Shown: positions 1-9,745 of the stretch, piece by piece
Numbering within the stretch: the stretch's first letter is position 1
Layout of the letters: each line of letters opens with the position of its first letter
From: Streptosporangiaceae bacterium
GTDB lineage: Bacteria > Actinomycetota > Actinomycetes > Streptosporangiales > Streptosporangiaceae
Length of the DNA stretch: 10,405 nt
Reading direction: 5' to 3'
NCBI GenBank assembly: GCA_030040475.1
Contig: JASHTQ010000331.1
Location: 1-10,405 of the forward strand
The notes under the pieces: model-generated
What the model saw: only the letters and a program-made list of their open reading frames with translations
The model's database searches: none
Told to the model about the DNA's origin: nothing
Program-made: the position numbers and the translations under genes

Positions 1-3000
1 CCGTCGTCGAGCGGGCAGAACGTCGCCGCGAAGCGCCGGTAGGCCTCGCCGTAGCGGGCCGCGACCGAGTCGACGTCCCCGATCGCCTCGATCACCTCGG
101 CCGAGGTGGCCAGCAGCGGGCCGGGCGCCTCCGCCTCGAAGTCGAAGTAGAAGCCGCGCAGGTTGTCACGGTACTCGGCCAGGTCATAGGTGTAGAACAG
201 CATCGGCCTGCCGGTGACCGCGTAGTCGAACATGGCCGAGGAGTAGTCCGTGACCAGGATGTCGGCCACCAGGTAGAGCTCGGTGATGTCGGGATACGCG
301 GTCACGTTGAGCGCGAACCCCGGCCGCATCCCGGCGGGCACGTCGTCGGCCATCTGGTGGTGACCGCGGATCAGGAACACGTGGTCCGCGCCGAGCGCCT
401 GCCACGCGCGCTCCAGGTCCAGCCGCATGTCGAAGCGGTACCTGCGGCCGTTGGCGTAGACCTGGTTGTCGCGCCAGGTCGGCGCGTAAAGGACGACCCG
501 CTTGGCCGGGTCGATGCCCAGCCGCGAACGCACCCGAGCCGCGAGTTCCGGCGTGTCGGGACGGCACATCAGGTCGTTGCGCGGGTACCCGTACTCGCAG
601 ATCTCGCCCTCGTAGCGGAAGGCACGGCGCATTATCGGCGTGCTGAACGGGTTGGGCGACAGCAGCAGGTCCCACTGCGCGACGTCCCTCGCCAGGTGGT
701 CGAAGTAGGCCGTGCCGCTGATGAACTGCGGGTTGGCGATGTCGAAACCGATCCGCTTGAGCATCGTGCCGTGCCAGGTCTGCAGGTAGACCTGGCCGTC
801 TCGCTTACGGAACGGCAGCTGCATGTCGTCGTTGGCGATCAGGTACGCCGACCGGGCCAGCGCCTCGTAGTACTCCTGCGTGCCGCGCAGCACGCCGGTG
901 CCGCCCTCGGGCACCGGGACCGACCAGTCGGTGACCGCCCACAGCTGCTCGCGGTCATCGCCCCTGCGGCGCAGCTCCTCGGCGATCCCGAGCGGGTTGT
1001 CGCCGCACTGCTTGCCCTTCCAGCTGACGAACATGATCTGGTCGCGGGCCGGGGTCCGCCGCATCGCCGGGTAGAAGCCGCGGCGCAGCGCCCGCTGGCT
1101 GAAGTTGCCCTGCTCGGTGCGGCGCAGCCGCGGCTCGGCGGTGATCAGCGGGTCGTCGTGGCCGGTGACGATCAGCCGGTACCACTTGCGCCCGGCGGCC
1201 ACCCGGTCGCCGGCCACGTCGGCGAGCCGGTCGTGGTCGTACGTGAGCTCCGCCAGCCCCGAGCCGTCACCGTCCGCCGGGCGTACGTAGAGGTTCCACT
1301 CGCCGTCGCGCAGCGGGACGGCCGAGCCGAAGAACGGCATCCGGTCCACGTCGAGCTCGACGCTGAACCGCTCGCCCCGCACCGGGAACGGGACGACGTG
1401 GGAATCGCCCGACCCGATCCGGCGCAGCACCATCTCGTAGCGCTCGCCGCCGAGCAGGCCGCCGAGGAAGCCGCCGTCCAGCACCAGGCGGCCGTCGGGA
1501 CGCCAGGCGTACGAGTCGATCACCGGACGCGGGGTGCGTTCTGCCATCACAAGGTCACCGTAGCGGCTCCGGCCGACCACGGCCTCCCGGCCGCCGAACA
1601 GGTGCCTGCCCTCCGGCATGCCGTCCGGCCACGCCACCCGGATCCTCGGCCCGCCCGGCGCCGTGACGTAGACGTCCCAGGCCATGCCGTCGTCGCCGAC
1701 CCTCCCGGCCTGGCCGACCCGGTCCGCCACGTCGCCCGCCCCGGCCAGGTCGGCCAGCGAGACGCGCGCGCGCCAGAGGCGCCCAGCAGAACCCGAAGAA
1801 CCAGCGGGACCCGAGGAACCAGGGGAACCAGGGGAACCAGCGGGGCTGGACGGGCTGGACGGGCGGGTCATGGGGAACGACCGACTCGCCGCACCGCGGT
1901 TGCGGACGAGCACAAGCTCGGGCTGGCCGGCCGAGGCCGCCGCGGCGGCAAGCTCCACGTCGATCTCGACGGCGGGGCCACCGAGGGCTGCCGGGTCATC
2001 GAACCCGTCCTGCCAGGCGTGCCCGGCCAGGAACGCGCCGACCCGCCAGGTGGCCAGGTTGAGGCCGAGCCCTGCCCACCTGGCACCGAACCGCAGACCC
2101 GGCCCGGCCTGGCGCGGCTGGGGCCGTTCGGCCGGACCCGGCACCGGGGTGTGCACCCGGGCCGGCCGCCACACGCCGTGGCCGCGGACGAGCATGTAGC
2201 ACTGCCACTCCCCGACGCCCCGCAGCCGCCCCGGCCGGATCGAGAACCGGAAACCCGACCAGTCGTAGTTGTAGTGTTCCTGCTCCGACAGGGCGGTCGC
2301 GTCCGGGTTGAGGAAGGACCGGACGGGCAGCACGCGAGGCAGCCGCCGGCCCGGCGGGCGCAGCACGAGCAGCTTCGAGGTGTTCCGCCGCCTGGCGACG
2401 TCGACCGAGGGGACGTTGGCCCGGCCGGTGACGACCAGCCGGCCAGCGTCCCAGCCGATGTCGTCCACCTGCATGTACGGGTCGAGGTCGCGCCAGTGCG
2501 GCCGGAAGACGCGGGCGGGCACCGGCACCGGGGAGCCGACCCGGAACGGCAGGTCGGCCAGCAGCCGGCCATGCCGGCGGACCATCGGTACCTGGCGCAC
2601 CGGCTGTTCCATCATCCACGCGGCGAACTCGGCCAGTTGCGCGGTCGCCCCGATCCGCACCAGGTAATAGGCCAGCTTGTGGGTGGCGGGCAGGCTGCGC
2701 ATCACCCGCCGGCCGACGCCCGACAGGTAGCCGTCCACCAGGTCGGCGAACTCGGCCCGGTACTCCTCGGTGACCTTGTGCAGGTCCTGGACGTAGAGCC
2801 ACAGGTCGTTCTTGAGCGCCTTGCGCTGGTGCGCGCGCAGCAGGGCGGACGTCGAGTGCGCGGCGATGAACGCGTCGATGTCGTCGAGCGCCGTCATCCG
2901 GTCGCGCAGGTTGCCGATATCTCCCCGGCTCTGCGTGATCGACAGCCTGCCCTGCGCGCGCTCGCGCCAGTAGTAGACGATGTCGGGTATCACGTCCACG

Positions 3001-3593
3001 GCCCTGGCCAGCACGTGGGCCTTGGTCATCAGCCTGATGTCTTCCCAGACCACGCCTTCGGGGTAGGCCAGCCGATTGGCGTCCCAGAACGAGCGCCTGA
3101 ACAGCTTGTTCCACACCGACACGTCGTAGAGCAGCCGCGGGGTCTTGGTGATGTGCGTGCCTGTCTGCCTGCCCTTGATCGCCAGCGAGTGCAGCGCCGA
3201 CGGGTTCAGGCCCTTGGGGCCGACCCGCCAGACGGCCCCGCTGACGAAGTCCGACCCGGATCGCTCCAGCGTGTGCAGCAGCAGCTCGTACGCGTTGCTC
3301 GGCAGCATGTCGTCGCCGTCGACGAAGGCCAGGTACTCGCCGCGGGCGCGCTCGACGCCGCGGTTGCGCGCGCCGCCGGGCCCGCCGTGCTCGGCCTGGA
3401 CGAGGATGAACCGGGGGTCGGCGGCCGCCTTCGCCCGCGCGATCTGCGCGCTGTGGTCGGTGGAGGCGTCGTCGACCATGATCACCTCAAGGTCGCCGAA
3501 CGACTGGGCACCGATCGAATCCAGGCAGTCCCCGAGGTCGTCGGAGTTATTGAAGAACGCCACGACGACGCTGATCTTGGGCCTGCTGCTCAC
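1..3593 (-). CDS. Bifunctional GT2 glycosyltransferase / CDP-glycerol glycerophosphotransferase (TagF-like), C-terminus cut by window edge
   Basis: Translating from the GTG at 3593 gives 1197 codons with no stop before the left edge. Residues 1-330 or so are a GT-A family 2 domain: a VVVAFFNN strand near residue 10, VDDAST (D41-D42), GGPGGARNRG (70-79) and the DGDD metal/nucleotide motif (92-95). About 330-820 is a beta-rich region of unknown role split by a Gly-X-Y-like linker (577-601). From about 820 the sequence matches the TagF/TagB glycerophosphotransferase core: SWKGKQ, TWHGT with His941, GYPRND, YAPTWR (1036-1041), RGHHQM (His1078-1079) and VTDYSS (D1116). The family transfers glycerol-phosphate from CDP-glycerol onto a growing wall polymer at the inner membrane face; the GT2 part would add a sugar, so a sugar/glycerol-phosphate wall polymer is inferred. 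Only a short C-terminal tail should be missing. GTG was chosen because it overlaps the stop of the upstream synthase (GTGA, 3593-3590). Substrates are not deducible. Confidence 0.9.
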   Translation of the reverse strand, partial: MSSRPKISVVVAFFNNSDDLGDCLDSIGAQSFGDLEVIMVDDASTDHSAQIARAKAAADPRFILVQAEHGGPGGARNRGVERARGEYLAFVDGDDMLPSNAYELLLHTLERSGSDFVSGAVWRVGPKGLNPSALHSLAIKGRQTGTHITKTPRLLYDVSVWNKLFRRSFWDANRLAYPEGVVWEDIRLMTKAHVLARAVDVIPDIVYYWRERAQGRLSITQSRGDIGNLRDRMTALDDIDAFIAAHSTSALLRAHQRKALKNDLWLYVQDLHKVTEEYRAEFADLVDGYLSGVGRRVMRSLPATHKLAYYLVRIGATAQLAEFAAWMMEQPVRQVPMVRRHGRLLADLPFRVGSPVPVPARVFRPHWRDLDPYMQVDDIGWDAGRLVVTGRANVPSVDVARRRNTSKLLVLRPPGRRLPRVLPVRSFLNPDATALSEQEHYNYDWSGFRFSIRPGRLRGVGEWQCYMLVRGHGVWRPARVHTPVPGPAERPQPRQAGPGLRFGARWAGLGLNLATWRVGAFLAGHAWQDGFDDPAALGGPAVEIDVELAAAAASAGQPELVLVRNRGAASRSFPMTRPSSPSSPAGSPGSPGSSGPAGSSGSAGRLWRARVSLADLAGAGDVADRVGQAGRVGDDGMAWDVYVTAPGGPRIRVAWPDGMPEGRHLFGGREAVVGRSRYGDLVMAERTPRPVIDSYAWRPDGRLVLDGGFLGGLLGGERYEMVLRRIGSGDSHVVPFPVRGERFSVELDVDRMPFFGSAVPLRDGEWNLYVRPADGDGSGLAELTYDHDRLADVAGDRVAAGRKWYRLIVTGHDDPLITAEPRLRRTEQGNFSQRALRRGFYPAMRRTPARDQIMFVSWKGKQCGDNPLGIAEELRRRGDDREQLWAVTDWSVPVPEGGTGVLRGTQEYYEALARSAYLIANDDMQLPFRKRDGQVYLQTWHGTMLKRIGFDIANPQFISGTAYFDHLARDVAQWDLLLSPNPFSTPIMRRAFRYEGEICEYGYPRNDLMCRPDTPELAARVRSRLGIDPAKRVVLYAPTWRDNQVYANGRRYRFDMRLDLERAWQALGADHVFLIRGHHQMADDVPAGMRPGFALNVTAYPDITELYLVADILVTDYSSAMFDYAVTGRPMLFYTYDLAEYRDNLRGFYFDFEAEAPGPLLATSAEVIEAIGDVDSVAARYGEAYRRFAATFCPLDD
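1792..1866 (-). repeat. Imperfect 9-nt tandem repeat encoding a Gly-X-Y-like linker
   Basis: On the plus strand, units such as CCAGGGGAA, CCAGCGGGA and CTGGACGGG follow one another in 9-nt register. In the minus-strand gene they encode a Pro/Ser/Gly/Ala stretch (about residues 577-601) whose second half reads GSP GSP GSS GPA GSS GSA, i.e. six consecutive Gly-X-Y triplets. Many of these codons end in T (GGT, GCT, CCT, TCT), unlike the G/C-ending codons around them, which fits recent repeat expansion. It probably forms a flexible spacer between two beta-rich modules. Confidence 0.75.
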
Positions 3594-5518
3594 TGACCTT
3601 GTCCTCCGACACCGGGCGATTCCCACCCAAGGGCCACCGGGTCGTACACGCGTTCCACGTAGATCTGGTGCCACAGCGAGAATACGACCAGCAGCCACAC
3701 GTGCCGCCAGGTAACCGCGGGATCGCCGGCCCGGAAACGCTGCAGGATGTCGAGCGCGGCGGGCTTGTTCAGCCACCGGCCGGTCTGCGCCGCGCGGATG
3801 ATCCCCTCGGCGTAGCCGTACATGCCGCCGCCGAGCCAGTAGCCGATCGGGACAGGGAAGCCAAGCTTGGCCCGCTCCGCGGTGGCCTGGGGCAGCAGCG
3901 CGCCCACGGCCTCGCGCAGCGCGAACTTCGTCGTACCGGCGGCGGTCTTCTCCACCCGGGCCAGCCGCGCGGCGACCGCGAGCACCTCCCGGTCGAGGAA
4001 CGGGGAGCGCAGCTCCAGGCCGTGGGCCATCGCCATCCGGTCCGCCTTGACCAGGATGTCGCCGGGCAGCCAGGTATTGATGTCCACAAGCTGCATGGTG
4101 GCGACGTCGTCGAGCCCGGCCTCGGCCGCCTGCCGGTAGACCGGGTCGGTCACGTCGAACTCGCTGCCGTTGCCGTACCTGACCAGCGCCTGCGCCTGCT
4201 CGCCCCGGTACACGTAGGCGTTGCCTATGTACCGCCGCGGCAGCGGCGTCGAGGTCCGGTTGAGCAAGCCCTTGCCCTTGGCCCCGGCCGGCAGCTCGGC
4301 GGCCACCCGGCTGATCGTCGCGCGCCCCCACGAGGGCAGCGCCTTTCCCGCGCGCACCACGCCGGGCTGGTAGTAGACGCCGTAGCCGCCGAATAGCTCG
4401 TCGGCCCCCTCGCCGGACAGCACCACCTTGACGTGCTTGCGCGCCTCCCGGGCGGCGAACCACAGCGGGACCGCGGCCGCGTCGGCCATCGGGTCGTCCA
4501 GGTGCCAGACGATCCTGGGCAGGCAGGCCGCGAACTCCTCCGCGGTGATCACGTACGGAACCGACTTCACGCCGAGCGCCGTCGCGGTCTCCAGCGCCTG
4601 GTCGATCTCGCTGTAGCCCTCGCGCTCGAACCCGACGGTGAAGGTGATCAGCCCGGGATGCAGCTCCGCGGCGAGCGCGCACAGCGTGGCCGAGTCGATC
4701 CCGCCGGACAGGAACGCGCCGACGGGGACGTCGCTGCGCATGTGCACGGCGACCGAGTCGCGCAGCGCGGTCAAGATCCGCTCCGGCGAGCTGGACGAGG
4801 GCGACCTGGCGGGCCGCAGCTCGGGGCGCCAGTACCTGAACACGTCGACCCGGCCGCCGGGCCTGGCGATCAGCACGTGCCCGGGCGGCAGCGACCGGAC
4901 GGGCGGCGTCAGCGTGGCGGGCGCGGGCACGTACTGGAACGACAGGTACCTGCGCAGCGCGTCCGGGTCGAGCGGGCCCACCTCGCCGGCGTCGGCAAGC
5001 GCCTTGCGCTCGGATGCGAACCTGAGCTGGGGCCCGAACCTGGGGCGGCCCTCGGCCGCGGTCAGCGCGTAGTAGAACGGCTTGATGCCGAACGGGTCGC
5101 GGGCGCAGAACAGCTCGCGCGTCCGCCGGTCCCAGATCGCGAACGCGTACATCCCCCGCAGCTGGCGGACGACGTCCTTGCCGACCCATGCGTACGTCTC
5201 GAGCAGGACCTCGGCGCCTGACCTGCTGCGCAGCTGGGCACCGCGGGCCAGCAGCCGCTGGGCAAGCTCGACGTAGTTGTAGATCTCACCGTCGAAGACC
5301 ATCACGAAGCGGCCGTCCGCGGACTGCATCGGCTGGCGCCCGCCGGGCGAGGGGTCGATGACCGCGAGCCGCCTGAAGGCCAGCGCCAGGTCGGCATCGG
5401 CGAAGTAGCCGTCGTCGTCTGGCCCGCGGTGGACCAGGCGCGTGGCGGCGTGGCCCGCCCATTCTGGGTCGGGCCCCGCCCCGTCTGCCAGCGCCAGGCA
5501 GCCGGTTATACCGCCCAT
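3590..5518 (-). CDS. asnB: Asparagine synthase (glutamine-hydrolysing) family protein with degenerate glutaminase site
   Basis: The family converts Asp (or another carboxylate) to an amide via an acyl-adenylate, using ammonia released from Gln by an N-terminal Ntn glutaminase. Numbering below is from a GTG 9 nt upstream (5527). The N-terminal domain is recognisable: HRGPDDDGY (33-41), FRRLAVID, GEIYN (80-84), MYAFAIWD, ARDPFGIKPFYY. The synthetase domain is intact: PPi-loop SGGIDS (274-279), GEGADELFGGY (372-382) and DRMAMAHGLELRSPFLD (496-512). I chose ATG 5518 because it yields MGGITG, aligning with the universal MCGI start; neither start has a clear Shine-Dalgarno. The oddity is that the nucleophile Cys is Gly, the oxyanion-hole Asn is Asp79 (FDGEIYN instead of NGEIYN) and the Gln-binding Asp is Gly104 (SGAE instead of SDTE). 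Glutaminase activity is therefore probably lost, leaving an ammonia-dependent enzyme or another adenylate-forming reaction. The length, about 642 aa, is normal. The stop overlaps the start of the wall-polymer transferase, so the product may act on the same glycan. Confidence 0.92.
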   Translation of the reverse strand: MGGITGCLALADGAGPDPEWAGHAATRLVHRGPDDDGYFADADLALAFRRLAVIDPSPGGRQPMQSADGRFVMVFDGEIYNYVELAQRLLARGAQLRSRSGAEVLLETYAWVGKDVVRQLRGMYAFAIWDRRTRELFCARDPFGIKPFYYALTAAEGRPRFGPQLRFASERKALADAGEVGPLDPDALRRYLSFQYVPAPATLTPPVRSLPPGHVLIARPGGRVDVFRYWRPELRPARSPSSSSPERILTALRDSVAVHMRSDVPVGAFLSGGIDSATLCALAAELHPGLITFTVGFEREGYSEIDQALETATALGVKSVPYVITAEEFAACLPRIVWHLDDPMADAAAVPLWFAAREARKHVKVVLSGEGADELFGGYGVYYQPGVVRAGKALPSWGRATISRVAAELPAGAKGKGLLNRTSTPLPRRYIGNAYVYRGEQAQALVRYGNGSEFDVTDPVYRQAAEAGLDDVATMQLVDINTWLPGDILVKADRMAMAHGLELRSPFLDREVLAVAARLARVEKTAAGTTKFALREAVGALLPQATAERAKLGFPVPIGYWLGGGMYGYAEGIIRAAQTGRWLNKPAALDILQRFRAGDPAVTWRHVWLLVVFSLWHQIYVERVYDPVALGWESPGVGGQGQ

Positions 5519-5572
5519 GCGTGCCACCAGACGTTCGCGATAACGGATCCGTGCTCAGCCGACCCGACCAGC

Positions 5573-6346
5573 CTACTTGGGCTGGAACCTGATCCCGCCG
5601 TCGAAGCGGACCACCTCGGCGTTCAGGTAGTCGTTTTCGATCAGCGCCAGGACCAGCTGGCCGAACTCGGCGGGCCGCCCCATCCGCTTGGGGAACACGA
5701 CCGGCGCGACCAGCCTGGCCTTGAACTCCTCGGCATTGGAGTTGAACCCGTAGATCGGGGTGTCGATGATGCCGGGGCAGATGGTGTTCACCCGGACCCC
5801 GATCACGCCCAGGTCCCGCGCGGCCGGCACGGTCATGCCGATGATTCCGCCCTTGGACGAGGAGTACGCGATCTGGCCGGTCTGGCCCTCGATGCCCGCC
5901 ACCGAGGACGTGTTGATGATCACGCCGCGCTGGCCGTCGGCATCGGCGGGCGCGGTCCTGGCCATCGCGGCGGCGGCGATGCGCATGACGTTGAACGTCC
6001 CGATCAGGTTGATCGTGATGACCCTGGTGTAGCTCGCCAGGTCGTGCGGGGTGCCGTCGCGGCCGACCGTCCGCTCGGCCCAGCCGATGCCCGCGCAGCT
6101 GACGGCGGCCCGCAGCGGCGCCCCGGTGGCCGCCGCGGCGTCCACGGCCGCCTGCACCGACGCCTCGTCCGCCACGTCGGTCCGCGCGAACAGCCCGTTG
6201 ATCTCGGCCGCGATCGGCTTGCCGGCCGCCTCGTTCAGGTCGGCGATCACGACGGTGGCGCCCGCCGCCGCGAGCGCCCGCGCGGTCGCCTCGCCGAGCC
6301 CGCTCGCGCCGCCGGAGACGATCGCCGAGGTCCCGTTCAGGTTCAT
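5573..6346 (-). CDS. Short-chain dehydrogenase, type 2 3-hydroxyacyl-CoA dehydrogenase (HSD17B10)-like
   Basis: A 257-aa classical SDR. Visible are the dinucleotide loop SGGASGLG (11-18), Asp36 at the end of beta-2 (favours NAD over NADP), CAGI (84-87), Asn113, Ser147/148, Tyr161-x3-Lys165, and the PGIIDTP segment. The C-terminus, ENDYLNAEVVRFDGGIRFQP, closely resembles the human HSD10/bacterial FadB2-like end, as does RGVIINTSSVA. The family oxidises the 3-hydroxy group of acyl-CoAs or hydroxysteroids with NAD+ in the cytosol; which substrate is used here cannot be read from sequence. The ATG is the natural family start; upstream there is no Shine-Dalgarno (the bases read CCTCCC) but a TATCCT box lies at -12 to -7, so leaderless translation is likely. 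It precedes the asparagine synthase by 54 nt on the same strand and could be co-transcribed, though its chemistry does not obviously fit wall-polymer synthesis. Confidence 0.92.
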   Translation of the reverse strand: MNLNGTSAIVSGGASGLGEATARALAAAGATVVIADLNEAAGKPIAAEINGLFARTDVADEASVQAAVDAAAATGAPLRAAVSCAGIGWAERTVGRDGTPHDLASYTRVITINLIGTFNVMRIAAAAMARTAPADADGQRGVIINTSSVAGIEGQTGQIAYSSSKGGIIGMTVPAARDLGVIGVRVNTICPGIIDTPIYGFNSNAEEFKARLVAPVVFPKRMGRPAEFGQLVLALIENDYLNAEVVRFDGGIRFQPK

Positions 6347-6744: not shown

Positions 6745-8359
6745 TTTCGAGCATGATTAGGCTGCGCGGGAACCCGTGGGCGGTCTTGGTCGTGGTGTCG
6801 CTCGGGTTCTTCATGACGCTGCTTGACCTGACGATCGTCAACATCGCCATCCCCAACATGATCGACAGGCTGCACGCGTCGCTTGACGACGTGCTGTGGG
6901 TGCTGAACGCGTACGCGCTCGTGCTCGCCGTCCTGGTGATCACGGCGGGCAGGCTGGGCGACATCATCGGGACGCGCACCATGTTCGTGGCCGGCATCGC
7001 CGCGTTCACGGCCGCCTCCGCCGCGTGCGGGTTCGCGCCGAGCGCCGACTGGCTGATCACGTTCCGCGCGGTGCAGGGCCTCGGCGCGGCGATGCTGATG
7101 CCGCAGACGCTCGCGATTGTCACGATGGTGTTCCCGCCGGAACGGCGCGGCGCCGCGTTCGGCATCTGGGGGGCGGTGGCCGGCCTGGCCACCATCGCGG
7201 GGCCGACCCTGGGCGGGCTGCTCGTCACCGCGTTCGACTGGCGGTGGATCTTCTTCGTGAACCTGCCGATCGGGATCGTGGTCTTCGCGGTGACCTTCTT
7301 CATCGTGCCTGACCTGCGCCCGGGGCGCAGGCACCGGCTGGACTTCCGCGGGGTGGCGCTGGCCAGCCTGGGGCTGCTCGCGATCTGCTACGGGCTGGTC
7401 GAGGGGCAGAACTACAACTGGGGCACGATCAGCGGGTTCGTGTCGATCCCGCTCATCCTCGCGGTCGGCGTGCTGCTGATCGGGGTGTTCGTCGTCGACC
7501 AGAAGCTGCGCCAGGACTCCGAGCCGCTCATCCCGTTCGCGCTGTTCAAGAACAGGAACTTCACGCTGATGAACTGGGTGTCAGGCACGCTGTCCGTCGG
7601 CATGCTCGGCATCTTCCTGCCGTTCACCATCTACCTGCAGGACGCGCTCGGCTTCTCCGCGCTCAAGGCGGGCCTGACGATGGCGCCGTCCTCGCTGGTG
7701 ATGATCTTCGCCGCGCCGTTCCTCGGGCGGCTGACCGACAAGATCGGCGGCAAGTACATCCTGGTCAGCGGGCTCACCCTGTTCGCGGCCGGGATGGGCT
7801 GGGTGGTCGCGATCGCGACGCCGAACTCGGCCTGGCAGGACTTCCTGCCGGCGCTGATCGTGGCCGGCCTCGGCATGGGCGGCACGTTCGCGCCGCTGAC
7901 CACCACGGCCATGCGCGAGGTCGAGCCGCGGCTGGCCGGCGCGGCCTCCGGCGTGCTGAACACCACCCGGCAGGTCGGCTCGGTGATCGGCACCGCGGCG
8001 GTCGGCGCGCTGCTGGAGAACAGGCTGGTGTCCTCGCTCACCAGCCAGGCCACGATCCGCTCCGCGGGGCTGCCCGCGCACGTCCGCGCCGCGTTCATCC
8101 ACGGGTTCAAGCAGTCCGCGGCGAGCGGGCTGCTCAGCGGCGGCACGACAAGCTCGGCAGCCCAGCCAGGGGAGCCCAAGGCGCTCGCGGCCCAGTTGCA
8201 GCGGCTCGGCGCCGAGGTCTTCAGCCACGGCTACGTGCTCGCGATGCGGTGGACGATGGTGATGCCGATCGCCGTGGTGGTCCTGGCCGCGGTCAGCTGC
8301 TTCGCGGTCAAGAGGGGGGTCGGCGGCCAGGACCGCACGGCTGAGGCGGCGCAGGCAGG

Positions 8360-9745
<1,386 letters not shown>

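Follow-up and report, generated by a model that had tools for sequence, protein, structure and literature searches.

In the asparagine synthase family, the AsnB proteins that amidate meso-diaminopimelate (meso-DAP) can be recognized by missing aspartate-binding Asp and Arg residues and by an extra loop (PMC8554201). In Corynebacterium glutamicum, LtsA is involved in DAP amidation in lipid intermediates (PMC7920481), and in human asparagine synthetase (ASNS) the glutamine-recognizing network around Cys1 consists of Arg48, Val52, Asn74, Gly75, Glu76, and Asp96 (PMC6748925). Here, we describe a gene on contig JASHTQ010000331.1 of the Streptosporangiaceae bacterium assembly GCA_030040475.1, whose 10,405 nucleotides we refer to as the window. 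It encodes an AsnB-type two-domain protein of 642 amino acids plus stop, with an intact synthetase site and a dismantled glutaminase one. The explanation we favor, with a probability of roughly 0.48, is that this is an AsnB/LtsA-type amide synthetase that works without glutamine hydrolysis and would use free ammonia or a small amine to amidate a peptidoglycan precursor. Active-site residues from Cys1 to Lys449 are numbered after E. coli AsnB with Cys1 as 1, codons and precursor positions with the initiator Met included. The features of the gene are as follows.

3590 to 5518, minus strand: putative AsnB/LtsA-type amide synthetase gene with its glutaminase site lost, 642 amino acids (open reading frame (ORF), Pfam, NCBIfam, structure model).
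5015 to 5515, minus strand: N-terminal glutaminase-fold domain (N-terminal nucleophile type, Ntn), residues ~2-168, under purifying selection (ratio of nonsynonymous to synonymous substitution rates, dN/dS; structure).
3590 to 4789, minus strand: C-terminal synthetase domain; motifs SGGIDS, SGEGADELFGGY, and K551 present, together with the extra loop typical of meso-DAP-amidating AsnB (alignments; loop hallmark from PMC8554201).
5513 to 5515, minus strand: codon 2, GGC (Gly), replacing the TGC codon of the nucleophile Cys1 (DNA, codons across orthologues).
5291 to 5293, minus strand: codon 76, GAC (Asp), at the Asn74 site (alignments, codons).
5216 to 5218, minus strand: codon 101, GGC (Gly), at the Asp98 site (alignments, codons).

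The protein carries the motifs MGGITG, FDGEIYN, and SGAEV, and its alignment with E. coli AsnB places Gly at Cys1, Asp at Asn74, and Gly at Asp98. A preliminary description of this DNA had read the same motifs, assigned them to the same three residues, and attributed the first to a one-base change from TGC to GGC; all of this is confirmed, as the window has GGC and intact orthologues have TGC. Of the recognition network, the Arg (Arg49), Gly75, and Glu76 are present, Val replaces the Ile of intact orthologues, and Cys1, Asn, and Asp are gone, so that the N-terminal Cys nucleophile and the Asn74/Asp98 glutamine site of a glutamine-hydrolysing asparagine synthase are lacking (Gly, Asp, Gly). The same description considered the synthetase site complete, and Asp238, Glu348, Asp351, Glu352, and Lys449 are indeed all retained. 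A dismantled glutaminase site next to an intact synthetase site makes glutamine very unlikely as nitrogen source: judging by these residues, the protein has in all probability lost the use of glutamine, and its synthetase half probably works. Of the earlier proposal of free ammonia, another amine, or a different bond, the departure from glutamine therefore stands, with the choice of donor left at both ammonia and an amine.

The ORF listing gives an ATG start, with an alternative longer ORF (3590 to 5527, minus strand) from an upstream GTG. Because the Met of the MGGITG-type motif is the first residue in 359 of 360 fetched homologues, the ATG is the likely start, and we reject one further upstream, which would leave the N-terminus buried. 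Pfam recognizes both domains (PF00733, 310.8 bits; PF13537, 130.9 bits), and the structure model has a pLDDT of 89.9.

We ran three protein searches, with the window protein and two orthologues (loci L121 and L122) as queries, and scored the best 120 clusters of about 8,000 matches in each (7,972 for the window). These sets are the nearest relatives of each query and no random samples, at 84-93% identity in the window set and at least 85% among the close kin of L121. In the window set, 108 clusters have Gly and 12 have Cys at position 1, all 120 have Asp at position 74, position 76 is Glu (108) or Gln (12), and position 98 is Gly (47), Ala (39), Ser (20), Asp (6), Val (5), or another residue (3), Asp98 thus being lost in 114 of 120. 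A sister lineage, represented by the L121 set, has Ser1 in 120/120 clusters and retains Arg49, Glu76, and Asp98 in all of them and Asn74 in 116, the other four having Asp. In the intact orthologue group around L122, Cys1, Asn74, Glu76, and Asp98 are each found in 120/120. Other combinations occur at individual loci: L118 has Ser at position 1 and is otherwise intact, L119 has Ser1, Asp74, and Ala76, L005 has Ser1 and Asp74, L120 and L030 combine Thr1 and Asp74 with either Thr or Val at position 76, whereas L001 and L073 keep Cys1 with Asp74 and Ala or Val at 98.

The substituted states recur across 240 clusters from many contigs, which excludes a sequencing error, as had been argued before. 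That all orthologues share the Gly is not the case, given Cys in 12 of the 120 nearest clusters and Ser in the sister lineage. The preliminary description had also held that intact orthologues at this locus would speak against its reading. Such orthologues exist, at about 65-71% identity (L008, L009, L122), and the reading nevertheless survives them, because they belong to the group that was the starting point of the loss and so date it. In 18 of 297 genomes from the family of one carrier genome (G006), a search gave a match at E <= 1e-120; that in G119, with 45-47% identity, keeps Cys1, Asn74, Glu76, and Asp98 and falls outside the clade.

The orthologues also differ in length. The intact ones (L008, 1042-3279; L009, 2742-4940; L122, 5537-7810) have, late in the glutaminase domain after residue ~155, an inserted stretch of very roughly 80-115 residues rich in Pro, Gly, and Ala, which is missing from the aligned loci of the degenerate lineages. 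L001 has a separate insert of ~40 residues in the linker, and the AsnB-like proteins of L004 (10001-12340) and L007 (1247-3766) end in a Pro/Gln/His-rich low-complexity tail of ~150-210 residues. One genome (G048) has two different intact contigs of the AsnB clade (L122, L123), reflecting either a mixed metagenome-assembled genome or a true second copy.

A 69-row tree supported by SH-aLRT (Shimodaira-Hasegawa-like approximate likelihood ratio test) values only places the intact orthologues outside and unites L118 with the degenerate lineages (99), which separate into the Ser/Thr (100) and window (99) lineages. A bootstrapped tree of 31 rows recovers both lineages (100/99 and 100/100) and their union (97/87) and gives L118 no firm position. 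Losses were counted on a 384-row FastTree from which the motif columns had been removed; if residues were never regained, Cys1 was lost independently 7 times, Asn74 4 times (always to Asp), Glu76 5 times, and Asp98 21 times. The Cys codon is TGC in L008, L009, L122, L001, and L073, the Ser codon is AGC in L118 versus TCC or TCG in seven scored loci of the Ser lineage, Gly is GGC in the window and L006, and Thr is ACG in L120. TGC is one base away from AGC or TCC, and AGC is two away from TCC, so the history with the fewest changes is one in which Cys was lost three times, once each to AGC, TCC, and GGC. Descent from one Ser ancestor would take more steps and a reversion to Cys, and a route from AGC through ACC (Thr) to TCC may be an alternative. 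Codons and trees together indicate that the nucleophile was lost independently at least three times, and such repeated loss (AGC, TCC/TCG, GGC) is expected if the glutaminase is dispensable.

Because Cys is found with Asp74 and without Asp98 in 12 of the 120 window-set clusters and in L001 and L073, Asn74 and Asp98 would have been lost first in the window lineage, unless Cys was regained. The losses thus seem to form a stepwise mosaic, with Asn74 and Asp98 preceding Cys1 in the window lineage and Cys1 going first in its sister, and not the coordinated three-site loss described previously. In all seven inferred losses the nucleophile became Gly or Ser (chance (3/7)^7 = 0.0027 if seven one-base paths are equal), a bias that is no more than suggestive, since mutation rates are unequal and a single event may underlie some of the changes to Gly. 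We do not take the four parallel changes of Asn to Asp as evidence of selection for Asp, because AAC to GAC is a single transition. These histories also bear on the idea that glutamine is still used with unusual residues, a Ser nucleophile in one lineage and a rearranged site in the other. The Ser lineage, with Arg49, Asn74, Glu76, and Asp98 almost completely kept, is in its favor, as is the lack of the usual Asn74 in TsnB9 (7ylz) and in one type of paralogue (par2, see below). Against this, the window lineage has lost Cys1, Asn74, and Asp98 together and leaves position 98 unconstrained, as its repeated losses attest, and we regard continued glutamine use as highly improbable.

The N-terminal domain does not otherwise look like one in decay. 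The mean ratio of N- to C-domain divergence is 1.23 among intact orthologues (3 pairs), 1.35 in the Ser/Thr group (21), 1.31 in the window group (6), and 1.43 in Bacillaceae (6), and N-domain dN/dS (Nei-Gojobori) is 0.19-0.23 (three pairs), 0.04-0.43 (seven), and 0.20-0.42 (five) in the intact, Ser/Thr, and window groups, respectively. Fifty N-domain sites, including all seven of the network, are conserved across the intact orthologues and six outgroups. The window group has changed five of them (precursor positions 2, 53, 61, 76, and 101), three being Cys1, Asn74, and Asp98: 3/7 network sites versus 2/43 others (Fisher p 0.016), or 4/7 versus 1/43 (p 0.0007) when the Ile-to-Val change at 53 is included, where human ASNS also has Val. 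The Ser/Thr group has changed 7/50 of these sites, Cys1 being its only clear network loss. Since the domain is otherwise under purifying selection, this points to a selective loss of glutaminase chemistry and not to gene decay; the fold is retained and its chemistry, as far as the residues tell, lost.

With an open ORF and purifying selection on both domains, we rule out a pseudogene. A protein that is translated and has lost synthetase activity as well, as a pseudoenzyme or regulator, would be conceivable because the loss of one catalytic site can in general precede that of the other. We find it very improbable here, given that the equivalents of Asp238, Glu348, Asp351, Glu352, and Lys449 are present in 14/14 clade rows and E502, R504, and K551 in 51/51 aligned sequences, and that C-domain dN/dS is 0.19-0.35 in five pairs among the window, L006, L001, and L073.

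In a tree rooted on E. coli AsnB, with the two in-genome paralogue types outside, the clade groups with AsnB-like proteins of Bacillaceae and LtsA-like proteins of Nocardia and Aldersonia (20 rows; bootstrap 100, SH-aLRT 98; the order within this group is poorly supported), to which identity is about 45%. These sequences, which we take to be of AsnB/LtsA type, stand in for B. subtilis AsnB, AsnH, and AsnO and C. glutamicum LtsA, themselves absent from our trees. The window clade has the extra loop, with the shared pattern KGK..L.R..TPL..RYIGNA (RYYGNA in the Nocardia/Aldersonia rows). Of the missing aspartate-binding residues, the Arg was checked, and R324 is Ala in the window and Pro in six Bacillaceae and Nocardia/Aldersonia rows. 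We give an acceptor of the meso-DAP type even odds on this basis. The glycan acceptor of the preliminary description becomes doubtful with this grouping of the synthetase half, and the one exopolysaccharide-system model tried, for the XrtA/PEP-CTERM amidotransferase (TIGR03108), is missed at 380.2 bits against a cut-off of 816.9.

Free aspartate would be the acceptor if the protein were an ammonia-dependent asparagine synthetase. The glutamine-hydrolysing asparagine synthase model TIGR01536 (EC 6.3.5.4) is passed with 432.2 bits against a cut-off of 267.1, and the meso-DAP-amidating AsnB of B. subtilis can complement an E. coli asparagine auxotroph (PMC8554201). However, R324 is replaced and the extra loop present, and C. 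glutamicum LtsA does not complement an asnA asnB mutant (PMC7920481). Moreover, all 12 genomes first searched contain at least one further AsnB-family match, although Glu348 is gone from one of two types of paralogue. This type, par1 (L095, L098), is the mirror image of the window protein, with Cys1, Asn74, and Asp98 kept and Met for the catalytic Glu348 (SGMGADELFGGY); the other, par2 (L107, L108), keeps Cys1 and Asp98 and has Cys or Ser at Asn74. All four paralogues are full-length and were entered in the 69-row tree. Taken together, asparagine synthesis appears distinctly unlikely.

Ammonia might also come in trans from a separate glutaminase protein. Two-subunit amidotransferases such as MurT/GatD exist, and a MurT_C match is found in 15/15 clade genomes searched. 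However, MurT most simply serves D-Glu amidation, and no glutaminase is found among the ten neighbor proteins put to Pfam (nine from L002 and L006, one from L118), the rest of the genomes being unscreened; we judge such a partner improbable.

The synthetase half has itself shifted. In 120/120 intact clusters, Ile stands at position 381, Ser at 500, Val at 505, and Ile or Val at 525; L118 and 240/240 clusters of the two degenerate lineages have Val, Gly, a residue other than Val (Thr/Ser/Ala/Met), and Thr in these places. Exceptions among the genome loci are Ile (L003) and Met (L073) at 381 and Ser (L006) at 500. Glu502, with positions 500 and 505 on either side, seems from its place in the motif to be the counterpart of human ASNS Glu-414, a conserved residue near the glutamine pocket (PMC6748925). 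If L118 belongs with the degenerate lineages, the four changes predate the separate losses of the nucleophile, as would fit an ancestor that switched donor or acceptor and descendants that then lost a useless site in parallel.

This shift is one argument for an organic amine in place of ammonia, which would attack the acyl-AMP as in beta-lactam synthetase or lasso peptide cyclase and form a different bond on a peptidoglycan-type acceptor. Beta-lactam and carbapenam synthetases have the same fold and have also lost glutaminase function. Yet the four changes are mild and not without exceptions, no gene for a second substrate is seen conserved at the locus, where a dehydrogenase is the most constant neighbor, and the lasso peptide cyclase model (NF033535) is missed with 176.8 bits against a cut-off of 525. 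We consider an organic amine rather unlikely, and a shade more so the particular history in which an ancestor altered its synthetase half to join another amine to the meso-DAP carboxyl, after which the glutaminase site became useless and the nucleophile was lost at least three times. If true, the latter would to our knowledge be a peptidoglycan modification of no known kind.

In the AsnB/LtsA-type amide synthetase that we favor, the C-terminal domain would use ATP to adenylate a carboxyl, most likely the epsilon-carboxyl of meso-DAP in a peptidoglycan precursor, and the acyl-AMP would be attacked by free ammonia (or a small amine) in place of ammonia tunnelled from glutamine. The glutaminase-fold domain would serve as the structural half of the enzyme, with the vacated glutamine pocket and the former tunnel as a possible entrance for ammonia. 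We infer synthetase activity, acceptor, nitrogen donor, and donor route from sequence comparisons, and ammonia is marginally favored as the donor. Several points weigh against this explanation. C. glutamicum LtsA is described as glutamine-dependent and as needing its N-terminal domain in amido transfer (PMC7920481), and a relative restricted to ammonia would have to make do with a less effective donor. Plain loss of glutamine use does not explain why Asn74, Glu76, and Asp98 persist in the Ser lineage, whose clusters are close kin, and Asn74, missing also from TsnB9 and par2, is no invariant of the family. The four changes in the synthetase half could mean a new acceptor, or an amine instead of plain ammonia, or drift, which is possible because they affect 4 of 138 conserved C-domain sites and the outgroups vary at 505 and 525. 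Finally, no report of meso-DAP amidation in these bacteria was found in the literature on Trebonia or Streptosporangiaceae cell walls in one open library, and a search there for AsnB proteins that lost the Cys gave no lead either; both are weak negatives.

Two genes adjoin the synthetase gene directly.

5573 to 6346, minus strand: gene of a short-chain dehydrogenase/reductase (SDR) family dehydrogenase, directly upstream, a conserved neighbor (Pfam, locus comparison).
3 to 3605, minus strand: GT2-TagF fusion gene (GT2 glycosyltransferase and CDP-glycerol glycerophosphotransferase), directly downstream (PF00535, PF04464).

The SDR gene, whose product presumably resembles a 3-hydroxyacyl dehydrogenase (best model FabG, below cut-off), is directly upstream in the window, L001-L007, L030, L073, and L119-L121. 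It lies one gene further in L118 and L122, behind an enoyl-CoA hydratase gene (Pfam on the L118 copy), and a matching ORF occupies the place of the hydratase in L008 and L009. The GT2-TagF fusion, about 1,200 residues long with its end outside the window and no Pfam assignment for its middle part, follows in eight loci (window, L001, L006, L073, L118, L008, L010, L122) and is absent from nine whose contigs show the downstream side (L002-L005, L007, L009, L119-L121). There a convergent ORF follows, by Pfam an extracytoplasmic function (ECF) sigma factor in L002, whose other neighbors are arginyl-tRNA synthetase, PF02504 (PlsX-type), a protein mannosyltransferase, a tetrapyrrole methylase-family gene, and a TatD-type DNase. 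In this light, the gene seems to sit at a stable place in the chromosome, with TagF as a dispensable neighbor. The suggested link to TagF-like genes is thus unsupported, and we reject a cell-wall glycan role deduced from this neighbor, which is missing from the eight Ser/Thr-lineage loci that cover the downstream side (L002-L005, L007, L119-L121) and from the intact L009.

A KamA-like radical SAM protein (8360 to 9745, minus strand; Cys motif CHAYCTYC) matches six NCBIfam models, each with a score under the cut-off. KamA matches occur near the gene in L002, L006, L073, L118, L120, and L121 and not in L001, L004, and L119. For this reason, and because a major facilitator superfamily (MFS) gene intervenes in the window, we reject a pathway combining lysine 2,3-aminomutase with a beta-lactam synthetase. 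The MFS gene (6753 to 8435, plus strand) encodes an efflux transporter of the DHA2 type (TIGR00711, 331.8 bits, cut-off 230.2).

Source records label these proteins, which occur in many metagenome contigs, glutamine-hydrolysing asparagine synthase, a name of which both donor and acceptor are unlikely to be right. The clade represents a natural experiment, with orthologues, many at a shared locus, that form a series from fully intact to Ser, Thr, or Gly types, with Cys-retaining ones in between. It makes testable which donor is used after glutaminase loss and what purpose a dead domain serves, and may uncover an ammonia- or amine-driven step in peptidoglycan precursor modification. For NAD synthetase, the choice between glutamine and ammonia was addressed by evolutionary analysis and assays (PMC3376133), and the AsnB-like PesC forms a nitrile from glutamine or ammonia (PMC13060819).

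Among the known systems, beta-lactam and carbapenam synthetases (1jgt, 1q15) share the AsnB fold with both domains and the loss of the nucleophile, a similarity of state and not of descent. In these enzymes a Tyr-Glu catalytic dyad serves beta-lactam closure. Identity to them is low (24% and 17% in structural alignments), and no biosynthetic cluster is seen around the window gene. The hydroxyamidotransferase TsnB9, a natural-product enzyme, is equally distant (24% in a structural alignment). Unlike E. coli AsnB and human ASNS, the window protein is without the glutaminase residues and the aspartate-binding Arg, and its extra loop adds ~45 residues compared with E. coli. With the meso-DAP-amidating AsnB of B. 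subtilis and Listeria and LtsA of C. glutamicum it shares the extra substrate loop, the missing Arg, and the synthetase motifs; however, the Bacillaceae and Nocardia sequences have Cys1, Asn74, and Asp98 and the named enzymes use glutamine, whereas the window protein has lost all three residues.

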